Below are positions 46,684 through 49,247 of a stretch of 55,123 bases of DNA, piece after piece. Under the pieces are notes generated by a model. It was not told the DNA's origin. It ran no database searches and saw only the letters and a list, made by a program, of their open reading frames with translations. The stretch lies in assembly GCA_001513155.1 (NCBI GenBank), contig LFSR01000010.1, positions 1 through 55,123 of the forward strand, read 5' to 3'. Numbering within the stretch: position 1 is the first letter of the stretch; each line of letters begins with the position of its first letter. The position numbers were made by a program, and so were the translations under genes. Source of the DNA: Syntrophomonas sp. DTU018 (GTDB lineage: Bacteria; Bacillota; Syntrophomonadia; Syntrophomonadales; Syntrophomonadaceae).

Positions 46684-47976
<1,293 letters not shown>

Positions 47977-47995: not shown

Positions 47996-48024
47996 TTGAC
48001 AACATTAGGGGCCTGTGCTATACT
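47996..48024 (+). promoter_or_regulatory. promoter of the tRNA cluster
   Basis: A consensus -35 TTGACA at 47996-48001, a 17-base spacer and TATACT at 48019-48024, 40 bases before the first tRNA. It should drive the tRNA genes and tadA strongly. Confidence 0.85.
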
Positions 48025-48064: not shown

Positions 48065-48154
48065 GGAGGGGTGTCCGAGCGGTTGAAGGAGGCGGTCTTG
48101 AAAACCGTTGAACCTTTGCGGGTTCCGTGGGTTCGAATCCCACCTCCTCCGCCA
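48065..48154 (+). tRNA. tRNA-Ser (anticodon TGA)
   Basis: A 90-base gene with a 7-bp acceptor stem, anticodon loop CTTGAAA, long variable arm, TTCGAATCC T-loop region and encoded GCCA end. It decodes UCA and other UCN codons. Confidence 0.97.
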
Positions 48155-48193: not shown

Positions 48194-48287
48194 GGAGAGA
48201 TGGCCGAGTAGGCTGAAGGCGCTCGCCTGCTAAGCGAGTAGACGGTGATAAGCTGTCTCGAGGGTTCGAATCCCTCTCTCTCCGCCA
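48194..48287 (+). tRNA. tRNA-Ser (anticodon GCT)
   Basis: A 94-base gene with acceptor GGAGAGA, anticodon loop CTGCTAA, long variable arm and encoded GCCA end. It decodes AGC/AGU. Confidence 0.97.
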
Positions 48288-48317: not shown

Positions 48318-48394
48318 GCGCCCGTAGCTCAGCTGGATAGAGTAACAGACTACGAATCTGGAGGTCCGGGGTTCGAATCCCTGCGGGCGCGCCA
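48318..48394 (+). tRNA. tRNA-Arg (anticodon ACG)
   Basis: A 77-base gene with acceptor GCGCCCG, anticodon loop CTACGAA and encoded CCA. A34 of this tRNA is the substrate for TadA, whose gene lies just downstream. Confidence 0.97.
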
Positions 48395-48434: not shown

Positions 48435-48511
48435 GCGCCCGTAGCTCAGGTGGATAGAGCAACGGTTTCCTAAACCGTGTGTCAGGGGTTCGAGTCCCTT
48501 CGGGCGTACCA
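48435..48511 (+). tRNA. tRNA-Arg (anticodon CCT)
   Basis: A 77-base gene with anticodon loop TTCCTAA and encoded ACCA. The first acceptor pair is a G-U wobble. It decodes AGG. Only 16 bases separate its 3' end from the tadA start codon. Confidence 0.96.
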
Positions 48512-48527
48512 TTGGGACGGTGATCCC

Positions 48528-49025
48528 GTGAGGGATGAGATATATATGCGGCTGGCGCTGGCTCTGGCCCATCAGGCGCGCCTGCACGGGGAAATCCCCA
48601 TCGGCGCCGTGGCAGTTCACGAAGATGAAGTGATAAGCTGGGCTGCCAATGAGAAGGAACAGCGCGGCGATGCCACCGCCCATGCAGAAATGTTAGCCCT
48701 GCAGAAGGCGGCCCAGGTACTGGGACGGTGGAGATTGACTGATGTTACCCTGTACTGTACTTTGGAACCATGTCCTATGTGTGCCGGAGCTATGGTAAAT
48801 GCCCGCCTGGGAAAACTGGTCTACGGTACTCGAGATGAAAAAGCCGGGGCAGCGGGATCAGTAATTGACTTGGTGCGCTATCCCGGATTAAACCATCAGG
48901 TGGCAGTAACAGAGGGTGTGCTGAGACAGGAATGTGCTGATTTGCTCAGTGCATTCTTCAATGATTTGAGGAGAGATGGCCGAGTTGGTCGAAGGCGCTC
49001 GACTCGAAATCGAGTAGGCGGCTAA
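48528..49025 (+). CDS. tadA: tRNA-specific adenosine deaminase TadA
   Basis: A zinc enzyme that converts A34 of tRNA-Arg(ACG) to inosine. The active site is HAEMLAL (about 56) and PCPMCAGAM (about 84-92). I start it at GTG 48528 (VRDEIYMRLAL), which aligns with known TadA N-termini; GGTGATC, a full match to the 16S anti-SD tail, lies just before. The C-terminus is unusual. After LLSAFFNDLRR the frame runs on for about 16 residues, very basic (RVGRRRSTRNR), that are encoded by the first half of the next tRNA gene. The stop (49023-49025) lies inside that tRNA. Total length is 165 residues. Confidence 0.93.
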   Translation: MRDEIYMRLALALAHQARLHGEIPIGAVAVHEDEVISWAANEKEQRGDATAHAEMLALQKAAQVLGRWRLTDVTLYCTLEPCPMCAGAMVNARLGKLVYGTRDEKAGAAGSVIDLVRYPGLNHQVAVTEGVLRQECADLLSAFFNDLRRDGRVGRRRSTRNRVGG

Positions 49026-49063
49026 AAACCGTCTCGTGAGTTCGAATCTCACTCTCTCCGCCA
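48970..49063 (+). tRNA. tRNA-Ser (anticodon CGA), overlapping tadA
   Basis: A 94-base gene with acceptor GGAGAGA, anticodon loop CTCGAAA, long variable arm and GCCA end. It decodes UCG. Its first 56 bases are also the last 18 codons and stop of tadA. Confidence 0.97.
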
Positions 49064-49097: not shown

Positions 49098-49193
49098 GGA
49101 GAGGTGGCTGAGTCTGGCTTAAGGCGCTCGATTGGAAATCGAGTAGAGGGTTTAAAAGCTCTCTCGCGGGTTCGAATCCCGCCCTCTCCGCCA
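49098..49193 (+). tRNA. tRNA-Ser (anticodon GGA)
   Basis: A 96-base gene with anticodon loop TTGGAAA, long variable arm and GCCA end. It decodes UCC/UCU and matches the TCC specifier proposed for the T-box leader. Confidence 0.97.
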
Positions 49194-49208
49194 CTAATTA
49201 CGAATATG

Positions 49209-49247
49209 AAGGGTTTCAGAAGTACGGCTGAAACCCTTTAGTTTTTT
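49209..49247 (+). terminator. terminator of the tRNA/tadA transcript
   Basis: An 11-bp stem (AAGGGTTTCAG / CTGAAACCCTT) with an 8-nt loop is followed by TAGTTTTTT. It lies 16 bases after the last tRNA and faces the convergent thioesterase gene. Confidence 0.88.

Follow-up and report, generated by a model that had tools for sequence, protein, structure and literature searches.

The tadA gene of Syntrophomonas sp. DTU018, which encodes tRNA adenosine(34) deaminase, ends inside the downstream gene for tRNA-Ser(CGA), and, judging by the layout of the locus, a given transcript probably yields either complete TadA mRNA or mature tRNA-Ser(CGA). Within the window (the whole 55,123-nt stretch of DNA analyzed), 56 nt are common to tadA (from a GTG start at 48528 to a TAA stop at 49023-49025) and tRNA-Ser(CGA) (48970-49063), and this TAA, located inside the tRNA, is the sole in-frame stop of tadA. 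The first-pass annotation had described the overlap, and the open frame together with the ARAGORN/Rfam tRNA call confirms it. The predicted RNase P site (48969/48970) cuts within the AGG codon for Arg148 (48969-48971), after which 17 codons and the stop codon of tadA lie entirely within the tRNA.

The tRNA-Ser(CGA), whose location is given by ARAGORN, matches RF00005 at 59.8 bits in Rfam, and the cloverleaf, long variable arm, CGA anticodon, and encoded CCA are all present (ARAGORN, Rfam, and the sequence itself); a tRNA survey of the window's genome found a single copy. TadA scores 195.8 bits against NF008113, above the NCBIfam equivalog cut-off of 150, and carries the HAE and PCxxC zinc/catalytic motifs, with H52-A53-E54, P81-C82, and C85 invariant in the alignment. 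Its predicted model (pLDDT 92) has the TadA fold, with S. aureus TadA (2b3j) as the best Foldseek match (TM 0.89/0.97). The gene is single-copy in the window's genome, which elsewhere encodes only distant RibD/deaminase homologues. The known substrate type of TadA enzymes is tRNA-Arg(ACG), deaminated at A34, and a gene for this predicted substrate is present at 48318-48394.

On the (+) strand, serS is followed by a predicted promoter, the genes for tRNA-Ser(UGA), tRNA-Ser(GCU), tRNA-Arg(ACG), and tRNA-Arg(CCU), tadA, the genes for tRNA-Ser(CGA) and tRNA-Ser(GGA), and an intrinsic terminator (Table 1). A TTGACA...TATACT element lies upstream of tRNA-Ser(UGA) in 17 of the 17 relatives inspected, and a consensus scan of the (+) strand from tRNA-Arg(CCU) to tRNA-Ser(CGA) found no promoter-like or terminator-like site. 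The earlier reading, which depended on the tRNA being part of the tadA transcript, is supported in this respect: no separate tRNA promoter was found, and one conserved promoter stands ahead of the whole cluster. The gene layout suggests that a single strong promoter of the tRNA type drives the entire cluster, and it is this promoter, combined with the lack of a detected promoter or terminator between tadA and the tRNA, that points to the two RNAs as alternative products. Among the 36 tRNAs of the window's genome with at least 400 nt of upstream sequence, to which this check was limited, tRNA-Ser(CGA) alone is entered by a same-strand ORF of at least 80 aa (1/36). As a within-operon control, the gap from serS to the first tRNA is at least 48 nt in 57 of 57 loci.

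Table 1. Features of the serS-tRNA-tadA region, in positions of the window
Feature	Position	Strand	Evidence or remark
serS	46699..47976	+	NCBIfam TIGR00414, 584 bits; control for CDS-to-tRNA spacing
Predicted promoter of the tRNA-tadA cluster, TTGACA-17-TATACT, TG before -10	47996..48024	+	11/12 consensus matches
tRNA-Ser(UGA)	48065..48154	+	ARAGORN; Rfam
tRNA-Ser(GCU)	48194..48287	+	ARAGORN; Rfam
tRNA-Arg(ACG)	48318..48394	+	ARAGORN; Rfam
tRNA-Arg(CCU), 3′ end 16 nt ahead of tadA start	48435..48511	+	ARAGORN
tadA, tRNA adenosine(34) deaminase, 165 aa	48528..49025	+	Open frame; NCBIfam NF008113; Foldseek
Arg148 codon split by predicted RNase P site	48969..48971	+	Arg148 invariance; base before tRNA
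tadA/tRNA-Ser(CGA) sense overlap, 56 nt	48970..49025	+	Frame and ARAGORN; kept in class
tRNA-Ser(CGA), CCA encoded	48970..49063	+	ARAGORN; Rfam
tRNA-Ser(GGA), last cluster gene	49098..49193	+	ARAGORN; Rfam
Intrinsic terminator ending the cluster	49207..49240	+	13-pair stem, then T-run

The spacing between tRNA-Arg(CCU) and tadA is ~16 to 24 nt in most relatives. In the window, this short spacer region (48512-48535) holds a conserved, Shine-Dalgarno-like GGTGA, and a recurring TCCC/GGGA pair flanks the tadA start codon; a start-codon hairpin formed by this pair was considered and dropped, as its folding energy was no better than that of shuffled sequences (z near 0 in most loci). An inverted repeat of 11 pairs (2 of them G-U) also lies within tadA just upstream of tRNA-Ser(CGA), at 48930-48956, and is apparently poorly conserved among the closest relatives.

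By cutting at the 5′ end of the tRNA, RNase P would strip tadA of its stop and of two of the three Arg148 bases, so that complete TadA could come only from uncut transcripts; the earlier claim that a cut at 48970 leaves a tadA message without a stop is borne out by this geometry. The cut message would end in GAT TTG A, and added A residues would turn the last codon into AAA and not into a stop. We lean, if only modestly, toward the reading that tadA is part of a tRNA operon, with a 3′ end held in common with tRNA-Ser(CGA), and that complete TadA is made only until processing and mature tRNA afterwards. According to this model, the tRNA-type promoter would drive the whole cluster as one transcript, and a ribosome close behind RNA polymerase would reach the tadA stop before the tRNA folds. 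Once the tRNA folds, RNase P would cut and leave a tadA fragment without a stop codon, which would only stall ribosomes and would be cleared by tmRNA; both tmRNA and SmpB are present in the window's genome. The outcome would be that TadA, a catalytic enzyme, is held low under a promoter strong enough for tRNAs.

Conservation was assessed in a class sample of 63 genomes from three families, which were returned alike by the order search and by the completeness-filtered class search and in which the junction was readable in ~50 species. Alignment of the tadA ends and tRNA-Ser(CGA) genes showed that the overlap is kept in relatives, a point on which the first-pass annotation had made its reading depend, with the same frame running into the tRNA in 37 of these ~50 species. 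Specifically, the 56-nt overlap (stop at tRNA nt 56) was found in 26 species, with tails such as FFNDL-R-RDGRVGRRRSTRNRVGG, and a 14-nt overlap in the same phase was found in 11 species, with the tail LRRDG or LRRGG. The stop of the latter falls at tRNA nt 14 because the D-stem reads GCTGAG, giving UGA, and this form also occurs in the finished, single-contig genome of Syntrophothermus lipocalidus TGB-C1 (L173; PMC3035303). In two members of the class sample (G036 and G048), the tRNA copy is broken or degenerate but the end of tadA derived from it remains. No overlap was found in ~12 readable species, and one genome with the same layout (G001) was set aside for an in-frame TAG in the middle of tadA. 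TadA identity falls to ~59% among the class members with the overlap. On a TadA+SerS tree of class and outgroup rows, in which many inner branches are weak, the overlap changes state only ~7 times; it runs through most of the class and was lost in several sublineages (about five lineages), so it is dispensable. In two species that lack the overlap, G040 (L111) and G022 (L123), the old tadA end survives as GATTTGA or GATTTAC immediately upstream of the tRNA, which suggests that an insertion or duplication removed the overlap in these genomes.

Signs of coding are visible in the shared bases. At every locus of the 14- and 56-nt types (41/41), the tRNA is immediately preceded by A or C, as against 52 of 109 non-overlapping loci (Fisher p = 4e-11, with shared ancestry uncorrected), so that the boundary codon, AGG or CGG, continues to encode Arg. 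An in-frame stop is present in each of the 35 distinct tRNAs of the two types, which follows from how the overlap classes are defined; in the same phase, non-overlapping tRNA-Ser(CGA) genes hold one in 56 of 101 cases and none in 45 of 101. Moreover, the tRNA-derived end of tadA is kept, as GGAGAGAT(G/A)GCTGA, in two genomes where tRNA-Ser(CGA) is lost after ~nt 42 (G036 and G116) and in one where the tRNA copy at the tadA end is degenerate (G048). In these three, the tRNA is broken near the anticodon loop, with its 5′ half remaining on tadA (L280 501-542 in G036, L282 772-814 in G116, and L281 near 2201-2315 in G048), and G036 has a tRNA-Ser(CGA) of a different type 165 nt downstream of tadA. 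A search for a mobile element behind the broken tRNAs found no integrase among the ORFs of the two inserts read. Two further features carry little weight: for stop avoidance in the D-loop, all tRNAs of the 56-nt group have C20a and hence no in-frame UGA there, but this base is also common in other tRNA-Ser and is no evidence on its own, and the stop in the variable arm is a weak sign, as TAA, TGA, and TAG alternate there but 10 of 101 non-overlapping tRNAs also stop at nt 56.

Arg148 does not vary among the TadA proteins aligned (34/34) and falls at the end of the final helix (133-149) of the predicted model, whereas residues 154-165 are predicted to be disordered. The basic tail had been presented in the first-pass annotation as a feature common to TadA proteins, a view that does not stand here: the tail is what tRNA-Ser encodes in this frame, and the 11 species with the 14-nt overlap, which end in LRRDG/LRRGG, do without most of it. 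As a conserved TadA feature the tail was rejected, and the residue kept constant at the boundary in the sequences compared is Arg148, not the basic tail. The tail of the 56-nt form contains four CGA codons, and CGA makes up 6.3% of Arg codons across the genes of the window. Arg is most often encoded by CGG in these genes (31%), despite no tRNA-Arg(CCG) among the 37 anticodons found in the draft genome; this may reflect a draft gap or four-way wobble by tRNA-Arg(ICG).

The order tadA then tRNA-Ser(CGA) is usual in Bacillota and common in Chloroflexi. Among 169 such loci, a count that includes a few species twice as loci came from two collections, the two genes overlap in 54, and the gap is 0 to 10 nt in 23, 11 to 50 nt in 45, and more than 50 nt in 47; across the phylum, the spacing is thus continuous from overlap to more than 100 nt. 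Overlaps that differ in length are seen in other Bacillota, in Chloroflexi, and in Nitrospirae. Outside the class, we found overlaps of 10 nt (L020, L061, L230, L246, and L249, in other Bacillota/Chloroflexi), 14 nt (L184, L185, L189, L200, and L261), 15 nt (L027), 22 nt (L048), 23 nt (L053 and L196), and 47 nt (L245). Since the stop positions differ between overlap lengths, the overlap arose several times, and by this comparison of sequences the arrangement is old and has repeatedly arisen. In the 10-nt type, the tadA stop UGA is formed by U8-G9-A10 of the tRNA, and A occupies position 10 in 5 of 5 tRNAs of this type versus 2 of 101 non-overlapping tRNA-Ser(CGA) genes; tRNAs of the 10-nt type may have been reshaped to carry the tadA stop.

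The fact that tadA and tRNA-Ser(CGA) are packed at every spacing across the phylum means that drift under compaction also fits, and simple tolerance of tight packing is a serious rival, which we consider possible if somewhat unlikely. In that case, tight packing once deleted the old stop, with Arg and another stop provided by chance from the tRNA, a change that is hard to reverse; the overlap would be fixed and functionless, TadA being needed in small amounts and nonstop fragments being harmless. The continuum of gaps (54 overlapping and 23 at 0 to 10 nt among the 169 loci), the separate origins of the 10-, 14-, 15-, 22-, 23-, and 47-nt overlaps, and the tolerated losses are all consistent with this, as is the finding that the TadA homologue YaaJ is dispensable in B. 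subtilis (PMC10454642). However, persistence in three families, with an invariant codon split and the same two endpoints, is long for a tolerated defect.

Two further readings give the overlap a regulatory role. The overlap might be a regulatory sensor through which TadA output follows RNase P activity, tRNA folding, or ribosome rescue, as by geometry one RNA can give complete TadA mRNA or the mature tRNA but not both, the genome encodes tmRNA and SmpB, and the same model has been put forward for selB/tRNA-Sec (PMC8124441). We find this doubtful, since no reason is known for TadA to follow RNase P and the overlapped tRNA-Ser(CGA) is not a TadA substrate, whereas the gene for the substrate, tRNA-Arg(ACG), stands ahead of tadA and shares no bases with it. 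We give equally little credence to the idea that the overlap is a selected, repeatedly evolved brake, in which tadA translation competing with tRNA folding and RNase P sets the TadA level and the 56-nt tail adds CGA feedback. In B. subtilis, loss of YaaJ increases +1 frameshifting at CGA (PMC10454642), so that with four CGA codons in the tail, low TadA activity would alter TadA's own completion.

A truncated TadA could instead be the real product, with RNase P cutting first, the protein rescued from the nonstop message being functional, and the codons within the tRNA being irrelevant. The predicted disorder of residues 154-165 and the FFxxLR ending of some TadA proteins from outside the class would suit such a product. 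This is very unlikely, because cleavage removes Arg148, invariant in 34 proteins, while the boundary codon continues to specify Arg and tadA retains its tRNA-derived end even where the tRNA is broken. Finally, an error in sequencing or assembly that masks a stop ahead of 48970, conceivable for a draft genome of 59 contigs, is refuted by the same junction in dozens of independent genomes and by the 14-nt form in finished S. lipocalidus, and its probability is negligible.

The closest precedent is selB/tRNA-Sec, in which selC (tRNA-Sec) is nested in or partly overlaps selB in Alphaproteobacteria, Dyella/Luteibacter, and Nitrospirae (Mukai 2021, PMC8124441). There, stops lie inside the tRNA at a conserved place, lineages have lost the overlap, 5′-half tRNA remnants follow insertions, and a nonstop-mRNA hypothesis, offered as a proposal, holds that processing makes protein and tRNA alternatives (PMC8124441). 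In both pairs, a gene whose protein serves tRNA biology continues in sense into the tRNA that follows, relatives retain this layout, losses and 5′-half remnants are seen, and the hypothesized consequence is that tRNA processing represses the protein. With its stop at tRNA nt 56 or 14, the tadA pair corresponds to the partial form of selB/selC and not to nesting of the whole tRNA. It differs in joining a housekeeping TadA to tRNA-Ser(CGA), which is not the protein's partner; in splitting an invariant residue of the protein core, within a cluster that has a tRNA-type promoter; and in its spread through the greater part of a class of Bacillota, along with further, separate occurrences in other phyla. 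The tadA/tRNA-Ser(CGA) overlap is a new example of this kind and more deeply conserved than selB/tRNA-Sec.

mRNA/tRNA operons of the secG-leuU type in E. coli, reportedly described by Mohanty and Kushner in 2008 (cited in PMC3985628), resemble tadA in placing a protein gene and a tRNA on one RNase P-processed transcript. Unlike in tadA, the reading frame in these operons is not known to run into the tRNA. In mitochondrial tRNA punctuation, tRNA excision sets mRNA ends and messages may lack stops (PMC9674279), and a cox1/tRNA-Lys overlap of Armadillidium is cited in PMC8124441. The mitochondrial stop is completed by polyadenylation, whereas in tadA TTG A plus AA gives no stop, and the stop exists only in the uncut transcript. 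No report of a tadA/tRNA overlap was found in the literature searched, which consisted of non-subscription papers.

Taken together, a free-living bacterial lineage has long kept a layout in which production of a tRNA should come at the cost of destroying the mRNA for an enzyme that modifies tRNAs. Where annotation pipelines do not allow a CDS to overlap a tRNA, genes like tadA here will be truncated or omitted. With selB/selC, this is the second gene pair of such a kind, on a housekeeping gene and in a class for which the genome of an isolate, S. lipocalidus, is finished, so that how translation and RNase P share one RNA becomes a testable question.
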